Shown here: piece after piece, positions 17,447-27,435 of the stretch
Position numbering within the stretch: the first letter of the stretch is position 1
Layout: the number at the start of each line of letters is the position of its first letter
IMG/VR virus record: IMGVR_UViG_3300035663_000084
Location: 1 to 27,435 of that record
Direction: 5' to 3' (one strand)
Source of the DNA: a virus
DNA: 27,435 bases
Program-made: the position numbers and the translations under genes
Notes under the pieces: model-generated
The model's database searches: none
What the model was told of the DNA's origin: nothing
The model's input: only the letters and a program-made list of their open reading frames with translations

Positions 17447-17809
17447 ATGAATAAACATATTTTTGACGCACATAAAGTAAACAAAGTAACACCATTACAT
17501 GATAGTGTAATCGTTTCTGACATGAATTTTGAAGAACGAACCACATCTAGTGGTATTGTAGTGGTTAGTGATGATGGAAAAAATAGTGGTATTAGACCAC
17601 GATGGGGCAAAGTTTATGCCATTGGACCTAATCAAAGAGATGTAACTATTGGACAATATGTTCTAGTTGCACATGGTCGTTGGACACGTGGTATAAAGAT
17701 CGAAGATGAAAAAGGTGTACATACAATTAGACGTATTGACACTAATGATATTCTTGCAGTAAGTGATGAACCCGTTGTCGATGATACCATGGGCGATAAA
17801 ACAATTTAA
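17447..17809 (+). CDS. 31: GroES-like co-chaperonin (gp31-type)
   Basis: 120 residues, similar in size to T4 gp31 (111) and host GroES (about 97). The 10-kDa chaperonin pattern is visible: VTPLHDSVIVSD near the N-terminus, SSGIVVVSDDGKNSG in the place of the mobile loop, then GKVYAIGPNQRDVTIGQYVLVAHGRW and a closing strand RRIDTNDILAVSDEP. T4 gp31 replaces host GroES on GroEL so that the capsid protein can fold; the same role is expected here. The gene has its own promoter and apparently a leaderless mRNA, so it may be expressed early or independently. It is distant from the other quality-control genes at 23470-26980. The symbol is by functional analogy. Confidence 0.82.
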   Translation: MNKHIFDAHKVNKVTPLHDSVIVSDMNFEERTTSSGIVVVSDDGKNSGIRPRWGKVYAIGPNQRDVTIGQYVLVAHGRWTRGIKIEDEKGVHTIRRIDTNDILAVSDEPVVDDTMGDKTI

Positions 17810-20830: not shown

Positions 20831-20855
20831 GGCTCATTACTGAGCCTTATTTTTT
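20827..20855 (+). terminator. Rho-independent terminator after the HAD gene
   Basis: 10-bp stem ATAAGGCTCA / TGAGCCTTAT with a TTAC loop (20827-20850), followed by T to 20855. It overlaps the phoH stop codon on the other strand; leftward there is no T run, so it should work mainly for plus-strand transcripts. Confidence 0.92.
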
Positions 20856-21621
20856 ACCCGTATAATTTTAATACTTTTTCTATTATTGGGTGTCGTTGAA
20901 CATCGGATACTGTAAATTTACATAATTGAATGGTATCAATTGGATGAAACTGTAATCGTTGTTCTAAATCAGTAAGTCCATTATCGGATCGTTTTCTATC
21001 TGATTGCTCTACATCTCCTGTAATAATAATCTTAGAATTCTCACCAATACGTGTTAACAACATTTTAAGTTGACTTGGTGTGGCATTTTGTGCTTCATCT
21101 AATATCACGTACGCATTTTTAAATGTTCTACCACGCATAAATGCTAGTGGTGATATTTCAATGATTTGTTCAGCTAACATGTGTTCAATTTCTTTTACAT
21201 GATAGAATTCACGAAACACATCTAGCAATGGTCTTGTCCAAGGTTCCATTTTTTGGTTAAGATCGCCTGGTAAAAAGCCATGTTTTTCATCATCCACTGT
21301 AATCGCAGGGCGTGTTAATACTATGCGTTCGCATTGTTTGCTGCGTAATGCTTGTATAGCAGCAAGTGTGGCAAGATAAGTTTTTCCTGTACCTGCAGGA
21401 CCTGTACCAACTACAACATCTACACGATCATCAGTAAGTGCAAGTATATAATCTTCTTGGTTAACAGATTTGGGGATTAAATGTATTGATTTACGTTGAC
21501 GTTGAGGATTAAACTCAATGGTGTTTTCATGTTTTTGGTAGTAGGTCTGTGTGTCTTTCTGTGGGTGTTTCATAAATTTTTCTTGTTCTTTTCGGATAGC
21601 CGAATTTTTTCTACGACTCAA
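20854..21621 (-). CDS. phoH: PhoH-like P-loop ATPase
   Basis: 255 residues from the TTG at 21619-21621, chosen because AGGAG (21629-21633, minus sense) sits 7 nt before it; a longer TTG-started reading to 21657 has no ribosome site. The N-terminal 50 residues are basic and polar, then the PhoH ATPase domain: Walker A GPAGTGKT (about 74-81), the segment RPAITVDDEKHGFLPGDL typical of PhoH, Walker B VILDEAQN (Asp175, Glu176), and ITGDVEQSD with the sensor region. PhoH proteins are linked to RNA metabolism and phosphate stress in bacteria and are frequent in marine phages, but the phage role is unresolved. It is the only leftward gene in the window and converges on the HAD gene. Confidence 0.92.
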   Translation of the reverse strand: MSRRKNSAIRKEQEKFMKHPQKDTQTYYQKHENTIEFNPQRQRKSIHLIPKSVNQEDYILALTDDRVDVVVGTGPAGTGKTYLATLAAIQALRSKQCERIVLTRPAITVDDEKHGFLPGDLNQKMEPWTRPLLDVFREFYHVKEIEHMLAEQIIEISPLAFMRGRTFKNAYVILDEAQNATPSQLKMLLTRIGENSKIIITGDVEQSDRKRSDNGLTDLEQRLQFHPIDTIQLCKFTVSDVQRHPIIEKVLKLYG

Positions 21622-21641
21622 AATTACACTCCTTTTAGTAA

Positions 21642-21656
21642 TGAGCAACTTGCTCA
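21642..21656 (-). promoter_or_regulatory. inverted repeat in the phoH leader
   Basis: TGAGCAACTTGCTCA is a perfect 7+1+7 palindrome, 8 nt upstream of the phoH ribosome site. It could fold as a small hairpin or be an operator. No known protein site is recognised. Confidence 0.4.
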
Positions 21657-21672
21657 AACGTATTTAAAGATT

Positions 21673-21799: not shown

Positions 21800-22411
21800 A
21801 TGCCTAAGAAAGATACATTCTTAGATTCATTAGAATGGGTTGACATTGTTAATAACGTAAAAGGTATCATGACAAGTGATGGTACGATGGCTACGTTATT
21901 AGATTTTGAACGTGTTCTAGATGAAGCAGATTTATATGCATTTAAAAATTGGAAAATGGGCGAATTAGTTGATGGTCCTGTTATTGGGAAATATCTAGTT
22001 TCTTGTACATTTATGTGGCCCCGTTCAATGATGCCTGACCCACGTGCAGGTAGACGTTTGGTTACTTTAGGCTGTAAGGTTAAATTTAAAGAAACAAGTG
22101 TAGAAGTTCCCGTTGAAATTAAAGAACCTATGGACTATAAGCCAGGCACCCATTACCCAAAGAAAACTAAAAAACATGTATGGTTAGTGAATATTACCAT
22201 TCCTAAAACATTAATGAATGATATTCGTGAAGGTAGCGTAGATATTGCTGAGCAAACTATTGATTTAGAAGATTTAGATGATGCATATCAAAAAGATTAC
22301 GATACTGAAGAAGTTAAAGGTGGTGAACAAGGTGGAGGACAACCTGTAGGTGGACCACCCATGCCACCACCTGCTCCTGCAGGACCCCCAACAGGAGGTC
22401 CACCACTATGA
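21800..22411 (+). CDS. conserved T4-like protein with Pro/Gly-rich tail, unknown function
   Basis: 203 residues. Residues 1-150 form a conserved domain (DTFLDSLEWVDIVNNVKGIMTSDGTMATLLDFERVLDEADLYAFKNWKMGELV split across a helical front and a beta core with VSCTFMWPRSMMPDPRAGRRL). The domain is followed by an acidic linker and a low-complexity tail of Gly and Pro (about 175-203). I recognise the domain from T4-like phages of cyanobacteria and pelagic bacteria, where it is paired with the next gene; the function is undescribed to me. The pair overlaps as ATGA. The Pro/Gly tail is a plausible flexible linker, perhaps added in this lineage. It follows a late-type promoter, which suggests a virion or assembly role. 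Confidence 0.62.
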   Translation: MPKKDTFLDSLEWVDIVNNVKGIMTSDGTMATLLDFERVLDEADLYAFKNWKMGELVDGPVIGKYLVSCTFMWPRSMMPDPRAGRRLVTLGCKVKFKETSVEVPVEIKEPMDYKPGTHYPKKTKKHVWLVNITIPKTLMNDIREGSVDIAEQTIDLEDLDDAYQKDYDTEEVKGGEQGGGQPVGGPPMPPPAPAGPPTGGPPL

Positions 22412-22944
22412 CCATATTAAACGAAAGTCTTAATTATTTGGACATGGAACATTTGATTGTTCCTATTGTTGGTATTGACAAGTATAAATCATCAATGGGT
22501 AAAGATAGTGATATTATAACATTAAGCTTTACGGTAAAAGATGAAAATGCTGCTGAAGATTTAGTGAATTGGTTTGAACGTGGTTATGATTGGGTACTTG
22601 ACTCTGATCGTAGCCCAGGCGAAGTCTCCCCCAATAAATATCTAGTGTTTGTTGAATTAGAGCGTAAAAAAATTGCAGCAAAACATATTATTACATTAAT
22701 TGAAGATTTAAAAACATTAACAGGAATTCCTATTGAAAATTGGAGTTTAAAAGCGAATGGTGAAAAAGGTGATGCAAGCGTAGAGTTTATTCAAGCTAAC
22801 GTTCCACTAAATTCATCTGAGTATAAAGAAGAAAATGATTTAGAATTAAATGAATGGCGTAACATTGCAGGAGTAAGTGTACAAACTAGTGTATCTAAAG
22901 ATGAAGATATATTAGCGATGCAACGTCAAGCAGGTATAATTTAA
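22408..22944 (+). CDS. conserved T4-like protein, partner of the upstream gene
   Basis: 178 residues. Visible: a two-layer alpha/beta core with LIVPIVGIDKYKSS, DIITLSFTVKDENAAEDLVNWFERGYDWVLD, then KYLVFVELERKKIAAKHIITLIEDLKTLTGI and NWSLKANG, followed by a hydrophilic C-terminus with NEWRNIAGV. Known to me as a conserved hypothetical protein next to the previous gene in T4-like phages. The 4-nt overlap implies coupled synthesis and possibly a complex. No catalytic motif or membrane segment seen. Confidence 0.62.
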   Translation: MTILNESLNYLDMEHLIVPIVGIDKYKSSMGKDSDIITLSFTVKDENAAEDLVNWFERGYDWVLDSDRSPGEVSPNKYLVFVELERKKIAAKHIITLIEDLKTLTGIPIENWSLKANGEKGDASVEFIQANVPLNSSEYKEENDLELNEWRNIAGVSVQTSVSKDEDILAMQRQAGII

Positions 22945-22954
22945 GGAAACAAGC

Positions 22955-23455
22955 ATGCCTATAACAACAATAACATTGGCACAACGTTCTGACGATGAAA
23001 AAGGTTTTGCGCTTAATGATGAAGCACATGAGCGTTTAGTTAAAGATCCAAGTGTAAAAACAGATGGTTGGCATAGCCCACATGATTTAAAAGCAGCACA
23101 ACAATGGGGAGCACCACCACAAGCTAATCAAGCTGAAATCCTCAAAAACCCAGGCGGCGCAATGCAAAGCGGTCCTGCTGAAGTGCTGATCAAAACGGAT
23201 GATAGTTTTGGTAACTTTATTAACAGTAAGTGGCGACCCATGATGGCTGTTATTTACATGGTTACCTGTACATGTGATTTTGTAATATTCCCTATACTTT
23301 GGAGTGTATTACAAGCGTTAAGTCATGGACAAGTTAACAGTCAATGGATGCCAATTACCCTACAAGGTGCAGGTTTATACCATATTGCTATGGGTGCAGT
23401 GTTAGGTTTAGCAGCATATGGACGTAGCCAAGAAAAAATCGCAGGGAAAGCTTAA
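22955..23455 (+). CDS. holin-like membrane protein (3TM GTA-holin family type)
   Basis: 166 residues: a 90-residue hydrophilic N-terminal region (polar, with DGWHSPHDLKAAQQWGAPP) and a C-terminal membrane part. SKWRPMMAVIYMVTCTCDFVIFPILWSVLQ (about 91-120) and a second hydrophobic stretch ITLQGAGLYHIAMGAVLGLAAYGRSQEK (about 134-161) follow the pattern of the 'holin of 3TMs, for gene-transfer release' family, common in T4-like phages of aquatic bacteria. It would permeabilise the inner membrane so the GH19 endolysin can reach the wall. AAGGAAA gives a good ribosome site. The long hydrophilic front is unusual for a holin and may be a regulator of timing. It lies directly before the chaperone genes. 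Confidence 0.72.
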   Translation: MPITTITLAQRSDDEKGFALNDEAHERLVKDPSVKTDGWHSPHDLKAAQQWGAPPQANQAEILKNPGGAMQSGPAEVLIKTDDSFGNFINSKWRPMMAVIYMVTCTCDFVIFPILWSVLQALSHGQVNSQWMPITLQGAGLYHIAMGAVLGLAAYGRSQEKIAGKA

Positions 23456-23469: not shown

Positions 23470-24264
23470 ATGGACCATTATCAAACATTGGGTGTGGACA
23501 GAAATGCCACACCTGATGAAATTAAAAAAGCATATCGTAAACTAGCTAGTCAACATCATCCTGATCGTGGTGGAGATACTGCTAAGTTTCAATCAATTCA
23601 AGTAGCATATGATACATTAAGCGACCCACAAAAAAAGGCAGCTTACGATAGCCCTCAACCACAATTTAATGGATTTAACCCACATCAAGGTGGTTTTCAT
23701 TTTAACTTTGGTGGTCCACAGTTTGAAGATATTTTCGGACAGTTTTTTAGACAGCAAGCAAGACCACAAAAACGTATCTATACAGCAACCATTTTTGTCA
23801 CCCTAGAACAAATTGCTAAGGGTGAACAACAAACCGTACATCTTAATACACCAAGTGGTCCACAATTATTTAAGATTGATTTACCTAGGGGTATTGACGA
23901 TGGTGCTGTAGTACGGTATGATGGGCTATTGCCTGATGGGTTACTTCAAGTTAATTTCAGGCAACATAGTCATCCACTATTTGATCGTCGAGGATTGGAT
24001 ATTTATTATACAGTTGATGTTTCTATTTTTGATTTAGTCATTGGTAAAAAAATTATTGTCCCAACTATTTTAGGCAAGGAGTTAGAAATTACGATAGATC
24101 CACGTACACGTCCTAATTCAACACTTAGGTTAAATGGACATGGTATGGTAACTCAACAAGGTCAAGGTGATCAATATGTCATTATTAAACCTGTTATGCC
24201 CGAAAGTATAGATGACGAAATCATCAGAGTTTTAGAGAAACATTGTAATGTAAATACGAAATGA
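23470..24264 (+). CDS. dnaJ-like: DnaJ/CbpA-like J-domain co-chaperone (no zinc-finger region)
   Basis: 264 residues. J domain at 1-62 (DHYQTLGVDRNATPDEIKKAYRK) with the HPD motif at 30-32, so it should stimulate an Hsp70. A Gly/Phe-rich linker follows (about 63-98: FNGFNPHQGGFHFNFGG), then a C-terminal peptide-binding region with two beta domains: TIFVTLEQIAKGEQQTVHL and, later, DLVIGKKIIVPTILGKELEITI plus LRLNGHGMVTQQGQGDQYVII. The CxxCxGxG zinc region of full DnaJ is absent, so it resembles the class B/CbpA type (about 300 residues). No DnaK gene is in the window, so host DnaK is the likely partner. Its end overlaps the deformylase start (ATGA), giving coupled synthesis. Confidence 0.93.
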   Translation: MDHYQTLGVDRNATPDEIKKAYRKLASQHHPDRGGDTAKFQSIQVAYDTLSDPQKKAAYDSPQPQFNGFNPHQGGFHFNFGGPQFEDIFGQFFRQQARPQKRIYTATIFVTLEQIAKGEQQTVHLNTPSGPQLFKIDLPRGIDDGAVVRYDGLLPDGLLQVNFRQHSHPLFDRRGLDIYYTVDVSIFDLVIGKKIIVPTILGKELEITIDPRTRPNSTLRLNGHGMVTQQGQGDQYVIIKPVMPESIDDEIIRVLEKHCNVNTK

Positions 24265-24698
24265 AATTAACTAAAAGAACGTTACACCTTGAAACCAAAC
24301 CTGTAAATTTTACTTACCCAATTAAAAATGAATTATTGGGTACTGAATTATTAAAATTTATGCACAAAAGTGGTGGTATTGGTTTAGCAGCAAATCAAGT
24401 TGGGTTGCGAGACCGTGTGTTTGTTATGAGTGTAAATGACAATGACCGTGTATTTTATAACCCAAAAATCATTGATTTTAGTCAAAAAATGGTTCCATAT
24501 ACCGAAGGTTGCCTAAGTTATCCTAATGAATCGGTAGAGCTAGAAAGACCTGATACAATTATGTTAGAGTATCAAACTGCTGAAGGTAAATTCATAGCTG
24601 AATATTTTAGTAATTTAGAAGCTAGAGTTATACAGCATGAAGTTGATCACTTAAATGGAATTACAATGCATGATAGAAAATCGGAGAATAAAGAATGA
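24261..24698 (+). CDS. def: peptide deformylase
   Basis: 145 residues, slightly short for the family (about 150-170), as in many phage versions. All three motifs are intact: GGIGLAANQ (38-46), EGCLS (82-86, Cys84 metal ligand) and QHEVDH (125-130, with His126 and His130 as ligands and Glu127 as catalytic base). It removes the formyl group from nascent N-terminal formyl-Met, the first step before Met removal. Phage deformylases are known in marine phages. It is sandwiched between the J-domain and ClpA genes, with ATGA overlaps at both ends. C-terminal ribosome-binding helix is reduced, typical of phage enzymes. Confidence in activity is high. Confidence 0.94.
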   Translation: MKLTKRTLHLETKPVNFTYPIKNELLGTELLKFMHKSGGIGLAANQVGLRDRVFVMSVNDNDRVFYNPKIIDFSQKMVPYTEGCLSYPNESVELERPDTIMLEYQTAEGKFIAEYFSNLEARVIQHEVDHLNGITMHDRKSENKE

Positions 24699-26980
24699 TT
24701 ACAAATCCTGAGATTGAAAGTATTATTGAAGAAGCAATTCGTATTGCTAAAACTAAAAAACATGCTTATGTTACATTAGAACATGCGTTGTTAAGTATGA
24801 TTACCTATGATTCATTTAGAAAACTACTTGATGATTTTGGCGTAGATACTGAGCAAATGATTACTGAAGTAAATGGTTATCTAGATTCAATGAATACTTT
24901 AGTAGTAAATGCTCCTACTGATGATACTGAATCTGAAATTGCCCCTAAGAAAACTAATTCACTAGAGCGAGTTTTCAATCGTGCAGTAACACAAGTATTG
25001 TTTACAGGGCGCAGACAAATTGAAATTATTGACTTGTATGCGTCATTAATGCAAGAAACAAATAGTCACGCACATTATTTCTTATTAAAATGGGGCATAA
25101 CACGTTCTGAATTCATTCAATATTGGAACAAAAAACAAAAATCAATTAAACATAGTTCAAAACTATCTGAAGAACAAGCTAATGAAATACTAGAAGAACA
25201 TACTATTAATCTTACTCATTTAGCAAAGAAAGGTAAAATTGAACCATTAATTGGGCGTGAAACTGAAGTAGAAGATATTATTAATGTTTTAGCTAAACGA
25301 TTTAAATCAAATGTATTAATGGTTGGCGACCCAGGCGTTGGTAAAACCGTTATCGCTGAAGGTTTAGCACAACGTATTATTGATGAAGAAGTTCCACCAT
25401 TCCTACTAGAACATGAAGTATATTCATTAGAAGTAGGATCATTGCTTGCAGGATCTAAGTATCGTGGTGACTTTGAAGAAAAAGTCAAACAAGTTATGGA
25501 AGCACTAGCAAGCAAGCCAAAAACAATCTTGTTTATTGACGAAGCACATACTATGCGAGGTAGTGGTAATGGTAGTGGTGGTAGCGTAGATTTTGCTAAC
25601 ATGATTAAACCTGCTATTACTAAAGGTAATCTAAAAATTATAGCAAGTACAACATGGGAAGAATATTACGAGTCATTTGAAAAAGATCGTGCATTAATGC
25701 GTCGATTCTATCGTGTTTCTATTGATGAACCTGATCGTGATACTACCATTAATATTCTTACAGGTTTAAGTCAACGTTTGCAAAAGTTTCATGATGTTGT
25801 TATTGAAAAAGATGCTATTGAAGCATCAGTGACGTACAGTAGTCGATATATACATGAGCGTAAAAACCCTGATAAAAGTATTGATCTATTAGATGCAGCA
25901 TGTGCAAAACAACGTGTAGCTAATAATAATGGTGCAATTATTAATGAGGCTAGTATCAAAGAACAAGTTACTAGAATGTGTGGTGTTTCACCTGATAAAT
26001 TAAGCGGTGATAACTCGGATAAGATGATTAATCTTGAGGGTAATATCAAGTCTAAATTGTTTGGTCAAGATGAAACCGTTGAACAAATTCTAGAACGTAT
26101 CTATGTTAGTTATGCAGGTATTTCAAATGAAAAGAAACCTATGGCAAGTTTCTTATTTTTGGGACCAACAGGTAGTGGTAAGACTGAAACCGCACGTTTA
26201 TTAAGTGAATACCTTAGTATGCCATTGTTGCGTTATGATATGAGTGAATATCAAGAAAAGCATAGTGTTGCTGCGTTGATTGGGGCACCTCCTGGGTATG
26301 TGGGGTATGGGGAAGGTAATCTTGGTGGTGGAAAAATTATCAATGATTTAAGTAAAAACCCATATGCAATACTATTGTTTGATGAAGTTGAAAAAGCACA
26401 TCCTGACGTTTATAACCTATTCTTGCAATTATTAGATGAAGGTAGAATTACTAGTACAAATGGTAAAACTGTTGATGCCAAGAATACTATCATCATTATG
26501 ACAAGTAATTTAGGAGCAAGAGATAGTGAACGAGCAAACATTGGGTTTGGGTCAACACAAAAAACGGGTGAAGATGATAAAGCATTAAAAGAATTTTTCA
26601 AGCCTGAATTACGTAATCGTATTGATATGGTTTGTAAGTTCAAAAAGTTAGATAATCTTGCGATTAAAAAAATTGTGGTTAAATTTGTTAATGAACTTAA
26701 GTCACAATTATTATCACAGCATGATATTACGTTGAATTTAGCCGAAGACACTGTTGAATATCTAGCTAAGGTTGGGTACGATGACAAAATGGGAGCACGT
26801 CCACTTGCACGTAAAATTGATGAAGTCATTCGTGTACCGTTAAGTAAAAAGATCTTGTTTGAGCGTCTTAAATCATCGGTTGTTAATACCACAGTGGTTG
26901 ATGACAAGATCGAATTTACTGCAGAAGTAAAATTAAATAGGACTAGCGTAATTGGAACAGATGGTATTATCAGGGTTTAG
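24695..26980 (+). CDS. clpA: ClpA-like double AAA+ protein unfoldase
   Basis: 761 residues, against 758 for E. coli ClpA. An N-domain (1-145) matches the ClpA repeat pattern (KKHAYVTLEHALLSMI, SLERVFNRAV). D1 AAA+ has Walker A GDPGVGKT (211-218) and Walker B with Asp282-Glu283. D2 AAA+ has Walker A GPTGSGKT (490-497) and Walker B with Asp563-Glu564. There is no ClpB-type middle coiled coil between D1 and D2. The loop IGF at 616-618, in SERANIGFGSTQ, sits where ClpA and ClpX carry the IGL/IGF tripeptide that docks on ClpP, so it should feed host ClpP. No clpP is in the window. It overlaps the deformylase gene by 4 nt (ATGA). Full-length and intact; target unknown. The N-domain may accept host ClpS. 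Confidence 0.94.
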   Translation: MITNPEIESIIEEAIRIAKTKKHAYVTLEHALLSMITYDSFRKLLDDFGVDTEQMITEVNGYLDSMNTLVVNAPTDDTESEIAPKKTNSLERVFNRAVTQVLFTGRRQIEIIDLYASLMQETNSHAHYFLLKWGITRSEFIQYWNKKQKSIKHSSKLSEEQANEILEEHTINLTHLAKKGKIEPLIGRETEVEDIINVLAKRFKSNVLMVGDPGVGKTVIAEGLAQRIIDEEVPPFLLEHEVYSLEVGSLLAGSKYRGDFEEKVKQVMEALASKPKTILFIDEAHTMRGSGNGSGGSVDFANMIKPAITKGNLKIIASTTWEEYYESFEKDRALMRRFYRVSIDEPDRDTTINILTGLSQRLQKFHDVVIEKDAIEASVTYSSRYIHERKNPDKSIDLLDAACAKQRVANNNGAIINEASIKEQVTRMCGVSPDKLSGDNSDKMINLEGNIKSKLFGQDETVEQILERIYVSYAGISNEKKPMASFLFLGPTGSGKTETARLLSEYLSMPLLRYDMSEYQEKHSVAALIGAPPGYVGYGEGNLGGGKIINDLSKNPYAILLFDEVEKAHPDVYNLFLQLLDEGRITSTNGKTVDAKNTIIIMTSNLGARDSERANIGFGSTQKTGEDDKALKEFFKPELRNRIDMVCKFKKLDNLAIKKIVVKFVNELKSQLLSQHDITLNLAEDTVEYLAKVGYDDKMGARPLARKIDEVIRVPLSKKILFERLKSSVVNTTVVDDKIEFTAEVKLNRTSVIGTDGIIRV

Positions 26981-27435
26981 TTATACAAATCTTGTATCTA
27001 ACCATAATCAACATTGGTTATGGTATGACAAGTACAAGTATAAAACAACATTTCATATTGCACAAGCAGGTATTTTTAAGGCCTACGATGTAGCTTATAT
27101 AGATCGTGAATTAGAACGTGCTAATAATCGTGCTACTTACCAAAAAAATTTAACTGAACTTAGAAAATTTTTATTATGGAAAGAAAAATATGTAGAATTT
27201 GTTAAAACATTGACACATCGTAATGATATTACAGTGTATTCAACACGATATGATGTTTTAGAAGAAATTGCTATAACCTTACAACAACCTGAAACAGTTG
27301 AAGAAGTGCTTTATACCTTTTCTAGACCAAAAGAAACTATATACCATAAAAACCCAAAGCATAATTTTCGTGTATTTTTAAAAAGTAAAGTGTATACAGC
27401 TAAAGATATTCAGGATTTACAAGAATTTTTTACAA
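26961..27435 (+). CDS. unrecognised phage protein, 3' partial
   Basis: The frame opens at ATG 26961, overlapping clpA by 20 nt, and runs to the window end without a stop (158 codons visible). There is a weak GGA five bases upstream; no later ATG gives a better start. The protein is rich in Tyr, Lys and Asn with mixed helices (LERANNRATYQKNLTELRKFLLWKEKYVEF) and a C-terminal part HNFRVFLKSKVYTAKDIQDLQEFF. No signal peptide, membrane segment or known catalytic motif. I do not recognise the family. Its coupling to clpA suggests co-expression with the quality-control genes. Confidence 0.7.
   Translation, partial: MVLSGFSYTNLVSNHNQHWLWYDKYKYKTTFHIAQAGIFKAYDVAYIDRELERANNRATYQKNLTELRKFLLWKEKYVEFVKTLTHRNDITVYSTRYDVLEEIAITLQQPETVEEVLYTFSRPKETIYHKNPKHNFRVFLKSKVYTAKDIQDLQEFFT

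Follow-up and report, generated by a model that had tools for sequence, protein, structure and literature searches.

A conserved dnaJ-clpA gene pair with an optional deformylase gene in a lineage of huge phages: candidate half of a phage-supplied fold-or-degrade system

Introduction

The components considered here, and the general idea that phages manage proteostasis, are already published. In bS21-encoding huge phages, chaperones together with Clp protease have been read as proteostasis control; the text of that study, however, is without DnaJ, deformylase and ClpA, and contains no dnaJ-def-clpA-X unit (PMC9723584), X denoting here the gene that follows clpA. Moraphages, which are large aquatic phages, carry ClpA in 24 genomes alongside DnaJ, DnaK (in eight) and, in some cases, HSP20, but the text describing them is without ClpP, deformylase or GroES, gives ClpA in a gene table only, and could be compared with our locus by gene content (PMC12619734). 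The role of phage DnaJ is termed not well understood in the same study, and recruitment of host HSP70 by DNAJ has been discussed elsewhere (PMC7824862).

Here we analyse a 27,435-base virus record, the whole of which we call the window, and which covers part of the genome of a very large bacteriophage. An initial annotation had noted in it a coupled cassette of genes for a J-domain protein, a peptide deformylase and ClpA, and considered such a unit undescribed as a system. Our literature search, largely of papers available without subscription, agrees with this, as it returned no paper that describes dnaJ-(def)-clpA-X as a conserved unit or links it to a clpX-(dnaK)-hsp20-clpS-clpP cluster. 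On balance, we consider that the block is probably one half of a fold-or-degrade system that a large lineage of huge phages supplies itself and expresses together with its virion genes.

Results

Three complete genes follow one another on the + strand of the window: dnaJ (23470..24264), encoding a J-domain protein of 264 aa, def (24261..24698), encoding a peptide deformylase of 145 aa, and clpA (24695..26980), encoding a ClpA-type double AAA+ unfoldase of 761 aa. Both the sequence and Pfam bear out the initial annotation on this point, with all motifs intact and the two junctions, dnaJ/def and def/clpA, formed by 4-nt ATGA overlaps. Such junctions are not special by themselves, since -4 overlaps occur at 5 of the 26 gene junctions of the window, and we discarded them as a distinguishing feature. 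The three genes of the proposed cassette are thus real, but an overlapping fourth had been overlooked: gene X, on the + strand, starts at about 26952 or 26961, overlaps the 3' end of clpA, and is cut by the window edge at 27435.

The dnaJ-def-clpA block is placed after virion structural genes. Two of these (21800..22411, +, phrog_12928, and 22408..22944, +, phrog_13138) keep their order in relatives, and they are followed by a gene for a holin-like membrane protein (22955..23455, +), 14 nt upstream of dnaJ and kept in position in most relatives. The holin-like assignment, already made in the initial annotation, is supported by a Pfam match that narrowly misses the cut-off (E 5e-5) and by a PHROG holin match (1.5e-5). 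Likewise, the GroES-like co-chaperonin gene reported further upstream (17447..17809, +) is real (Cpn10, 2.9e-8; PHROG head morphogenesis, 1.4e-13), and is found upstream of the block in most relatives. The virion, holin and GroES neighbours point to late expression of the block. In favour of our reading, we found no terminator-like site on the + strand between 22955 and 27435; against it, the T4-type late promoter TATAAATA has no + strand occurrence in the window. Compared with the nearest distinct relatives, dN/dS ranges from 0.11 to 0.21, a rough figure because dS exceeds 1. The virion block is closely preceded by a PhoH-like gene on the - strand (window 20854-21657), and PhoH genes are also found near clpA in PAC2 and SCTP-2.

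This setting bears on a possibility raised for phage heat-shock proteins (PMC12619734), namely that the three products serve to destroy or neutralise antiviral proteins of the host, or to saturate its DnaJ-dependent sensing. Early expression would then be expected, whereas the block lies beside late genes in many phages from varied samples; moreover, the matches of ClpA in the Padloc defence library look like shared AAA domains only. We hold such a counter-defence role to be highly improbable.

The J protein comprises a J domain, a G/F-rich linker and a DnaJ_C domain (Pfam DnaJ and DnaJ_C), with a single cysteine and no CxxCxGxG zinc finger, as in class B, or CbpA-type, DnaJ/Hsp40 proteins. 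The HPD motif of its J domain (23557-23565) is kept in all 77 relatives, and among solved proteins it is the CbpA-like DnaJ2 type, which lacks a zinc finger, that the J protein resembles. A class A DnaJ identity was rejected, as there is no zinc-finger domain and the TIGR02349 score is 162 bits against a cut-off of 377.

By its metal- and active-site motifs, and by passing the cut-off of NCBIfam TIGR00079 (110.3 bits against 103.95), the def product is identified as a peptide deformylase. The Pfam match is Pep_deformylase (E 9.5e-38), and the motifs GIGLAANQ (24375-24398), EGCLS (24504-24518) and HEVDH (24636-24650) are all present in 30 of 30 deformylases from the slot between dnaJ and clpA. 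Compared with solved proteins, the window deformylase resembles a standard enzyme.

ClpA contains two AAA+ modules with both Walker P-loops, an N domain and no ClpB-type middle domain (Pfam Clp AAA, AAA_2, AAA_lid_9 and ClpB_D2-small, with a weak Clp_N match), and matches E. coli ClpA over its full length: residues 4-736 align with it, at 587 bits as compared to 485 for ClpB. TIGR02639 is its best-scoring family, yet the score of 794.6 bits lies under the equivalog cut-off of 993.15, and we therefore regard the protein as ClpA-type, from a divergent phage branch. The IGL loop is the site by which E. coli ClpA docks on ClpP. Aligned to it in the window protein is an IGF loop (26540-26548, residues 616-618), which is found in 79 of 79 ClpA sequences from near relatives, while all 30 ClpA sequences from triads carry IGF or VGF.

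Retention of this docking tripeptide in every ClpA examined, together with the co-occurrence of ClpP and ClpS described below, argues against ClpA and the J protein being virion-assembly chaperones for which degradation is not the point. A role of this kind would suit the position of the block among virion genes, and in RaK2-like phages clpA lacks a neighbouring dnaJ and is surrounded by structural genes; action as a chaperone or translocase has also been suggested (PMC7824862). We nonetheless consider it quite unlikely that assembly is the whole purpose of the pair.

That the triad is particular to this genome was a candidate reading while, among near relatives, it was seen only in L001, L002 and Sinorhizobium phage Phosso; a deformylase-profile scan, which added about two dozen further triads, and three clpA scans overturned it. 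As the deformylase-profile sample is biased towards def, three deeper clades were sampled by clpA. Across non-redundant loci, dnaJ is found before clpA in 186 of 190; the four that lack it there come from two RaK2-like phages, a Vibrio phage and SCTP-2. Among fetched loci with at least 1.5 kb upstream (overlapping sets), dnaJ stands directly before clpA in 292 of 292. From these two counts, the adjacency of dnaJ and clpA is not due to chance, and the pair is the stable core of the unit. Near relatives mostly have dnaJ followed directly by clpA with no def; the pair also occurs in Agrobacterium phage Atu_ph07 and in a Wroclawvirus, and the full triad in Phosso.

The order dnaJ-def-clpA, which the initial annotation had proposed to seek in related genomes, recurs in many diverged phages, with def between dnaJ and clpA in 82 of 190 non-redundant clpA loci; in the overlapping sets that make up the 292 loci, the counts are 2/71, 24/24 in the def scan, 54/62, 33/61 and 12/74. 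The refuting condition named in that annotation, adjacency of the three genes in a single genome, therefore does not apply. A "strict three-gene coupling" is nevertheless too strong a description: def is a labile, optional third gene that most of the lineage lacks, whereas dnaJ-clpA-X persists. On the clpA tree (FastTree), def was gained or lost about 15 times, as compared to 62 times for shuffled labels.

This coming and going of def beside a constant dnaJ-clpA pair favours the view that the deformylase is a translation-support passenger without functional tie to its neighbours, which would be compatible with our preferred explanation for dnaJ and clpA. Phage deformylases are common and have been interpreted as translation support (PMC7162821), and other phages carry def elsewhere, for instance beside an RF-1-domain gene. 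Against this, def was found in 6 of 60 records searched whole and in the dnaJ-clpA slot in all six, and in the exceptional locus L154 def is again near Clp genes (clpX/hsp20), though among Fe-S genes. Passenger status is thus a serious possibility, if short of a probable one.

At L154 (3505-5543; record G049, 159,889 bp), def lies between clpX and hsp20, and genes for an IscU-like scaffold (NifU_N, 1e-54) and an IscA-like carrier flank def and a kinase-like gene, so that a metalloenzyme gene here neighbours genes for Fe-S assembly. At L148 (3404-5025), a deformylase gene is located between an RF-1-domain (ribosome-rescue-like) gene and an apparent 2OG-Fe(II) hydroxylase gene. The slot deformylases form a phage group separate from sampled bacterial deformylases, with two main sets plus Phosso in their tree; they may have arisen once or repeatedly, as a single clade is not rejected (AU p 0.104). 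A recent host origin of def was set aside, the best fetched bacterial matches being at most 44% identical and in a separate tree group.

Gene X is present in full in L001 (7510-8184, ORF from 7501), where it encodes 224 aa. Of 340 fetched clpA loci that extend 700 nt or more beyond the gene, 328 have X next to it, and 7 of the 12 exceptions are isolate phages; in most loci, the start option closest to the clpA stop gives an overlap with clpA. Searches of Pfam, NCBIfam, PDB sequences and annotated phage records returned no match to X, and PHROG no convincing one. The AF2 model of the protein is confident (pLDDT 91.4, pTM 0.70) and, by its structure elements and partial VIA matches, X is predicted to consist of two ferredoxin-like units. 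Compared with solved structures, this fold has no PDB match at E up to 0.001 in Foldseek and a best VIA Z of 5.8; the best Foldseek matches are other uncultured phage proteins, with an Atu_ph07 protein matching weakly. X is kept as faithfully as the chaperone pair and has no known relatives beyond phages, which makes it the most promising starting point for finding a new function.

The initial annotation had read the lack of dnaK and clpP as fitting host hijacking. We reject this inference as a fragment artefact: the window is a 27-kb piece, so their absence from it is uninformative, and nearly all long relatives encode ClpP and ClpS, and some DnaK. We counted 25 related records of 239 kb or more, not all of them independent: a ClpP-family peptidase is encoded in 23 (with E below 1e-39 in 21), ClpS in 23 and DnaK in 6. 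Within the first set of 47 records, ClpP-family and ClpS genes occur in the same 19, including 13 of 13 records of at least 239 kb, and DnaK in 5. All 13 of these long first-set records have clpA, clpS and clpP in one genome, that is, a phage-encoded ClpSAP, as do G066 and G067, two of ten further records of this length, which combine the triad with ClpP, ClpS and DnaK. Further triad-bearing records include G052, with a strong ClpP match, and G046 (307 kb), with a divergent ClpP and ClpS. No ClpP or ClpS match was found in G061 (270 kb, triad), no clpP or clpS was seen in G002 (137 kb), a near relative of the window, and a search for the clpP of the window's clade with the G004 ClpP found none in the same samples. 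Any clpP, clpS or dnaK of the window's virus would lie beyond the fragment; going by its relatives, it may itself pair the block with a phage ClpP.

In about 11 uncultured contigs examined, these partners lie together in a second cluster with the core clpX-hsp20-clpS-clpP (Pfam identities), into which dnaK is inserted in five. Its fuller form (L111, L112-L119, L124-L126) reads clpX-(dnaK)-hsp20-clpS-(sprT)-clpP, with a SprT-like gene in some members; in most, an opposite-strand gene of ~230 aa and two uncharacterised upstream genes are also conserved. The Ser-His-Asp residues are intact in all 20 ClpP sequences examined, the docking pocket is mostly conserved in close phage ClpPs, and the G004 ClpP passes a model of genuine ClpP but not that of the phage head-maturation protease. 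Pocket position 60, a Tyr in E. coli, is Ser, His, Asn or Ala in G011, G017, G030, G033, Phosso and others, and among close phage ClpPs Atu_ph07 alone keeps the Tyr; the changes may possibly adapt the pocket to phage Clp ATPases. In addition to the standard ClpP, G004, G034, G049, G066 and G070-G075 encode another, divergent ClpP-like peptidase (E about 1e-26 to 1e-34), whose gene adjoins the standard one in G004.

These partner genes argue against host redirection, in which the J protein and ClpA capture host DnaK and ClpP while deformylase alters which N-termini are degraded: ClpP-family and ClpS genes are each present in most long records, and G066 and G067 have DnaK as well. Points in its favour are the triad of G061 without ClpP or ClpS, the lack of DnaK in most long relatives, an IGF loop that suits any ClpP, and the phage J protein Rki of RB43, which binds host DnaK and interferes with it (PMC3486835). 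As a whole, we judge host redirection unlikely, although it survives in part, in that most members are likely to use host DnaK, whereas ClpP would usually be phage-supplied.

Discussion

We favour the reading of the block as half of a phage-supplied fold-or-degrade system serving virion production. The J protein would hand unfolded phage late proteins to DnaK, either the host's or, where encoded, the phage's own; use of host DnaK is plausible because most long relatives have no detected dnaK. Proteins unable to fold would pass to ClpA, which would dock by its IGF loop on ClpP, mainly that of the phage, with ClpS delivering N-end-rule substrates to ClpA. Deformylase would deformylate late proteins as they are made in a burst, such that N-terminal processing keeps pace, and X would act as a dedicated partner. 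Against a phage-supplied system stand G002 and G061, in which no clpP or clpS was found, and the presence of DnaK in only 6 of 25 long records; G061 suggests that some members may rely on the host.

A more elaborate pathway, very unlikely in our estimation, would have protein fate controlled from the N-terminus: phage deformylase would set the N-terminal state of late proteins, phage DnaJ/DnaK would perform triage, phage ClpS-ClpA-ClpP would destroy the marked proteins, and X would be a virus-specific adaptor, of ClpA or of DnaJ, unlike known adaptors. A link between def and degradation is conceivable, since fMet has been proposed as a bacterial degradation signal (PMC4745127).

Hundreds of viral contigs share the unit, its partners are found at a second locus, and an isolate, Phosso, has the triad together with ClpP and ClpS. 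This makes it possible to test whether, and for what reason, huge phages maintain a protein quality control of their own.

Among known phages, Phosso (PV764938) has an annotated dnaJ-def-clpA order, two ClpP-family peptidases and ClpS; it differs in a ClpA that is 40% identical, a wider dnaJ-def gap, no gene X found and no DnaK match. In Atu_ph07 (PMC6102473), dnaJ likewise adjoins clpA, and ClpP, ClpS, ClpX and ClpB are reported, but no deformylase was found, and X does not follow clpA by sequence, its weak fold match being to another protein. Rki of RB43 (PMC3486835) is, like the window protein, a phage J-domain protein, and acts on DnaK; Rki is early and not a generic co-chaperone, whereas the window J protein has a DnaJ_C domain and adjoins clpA. 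The bacterial ClpS-ClpA-ClpP and DnaK-DnaJ systems comprise the same protein families; in contrast, the viral versions are distributed between two loci of the phage and have def and X in addition.
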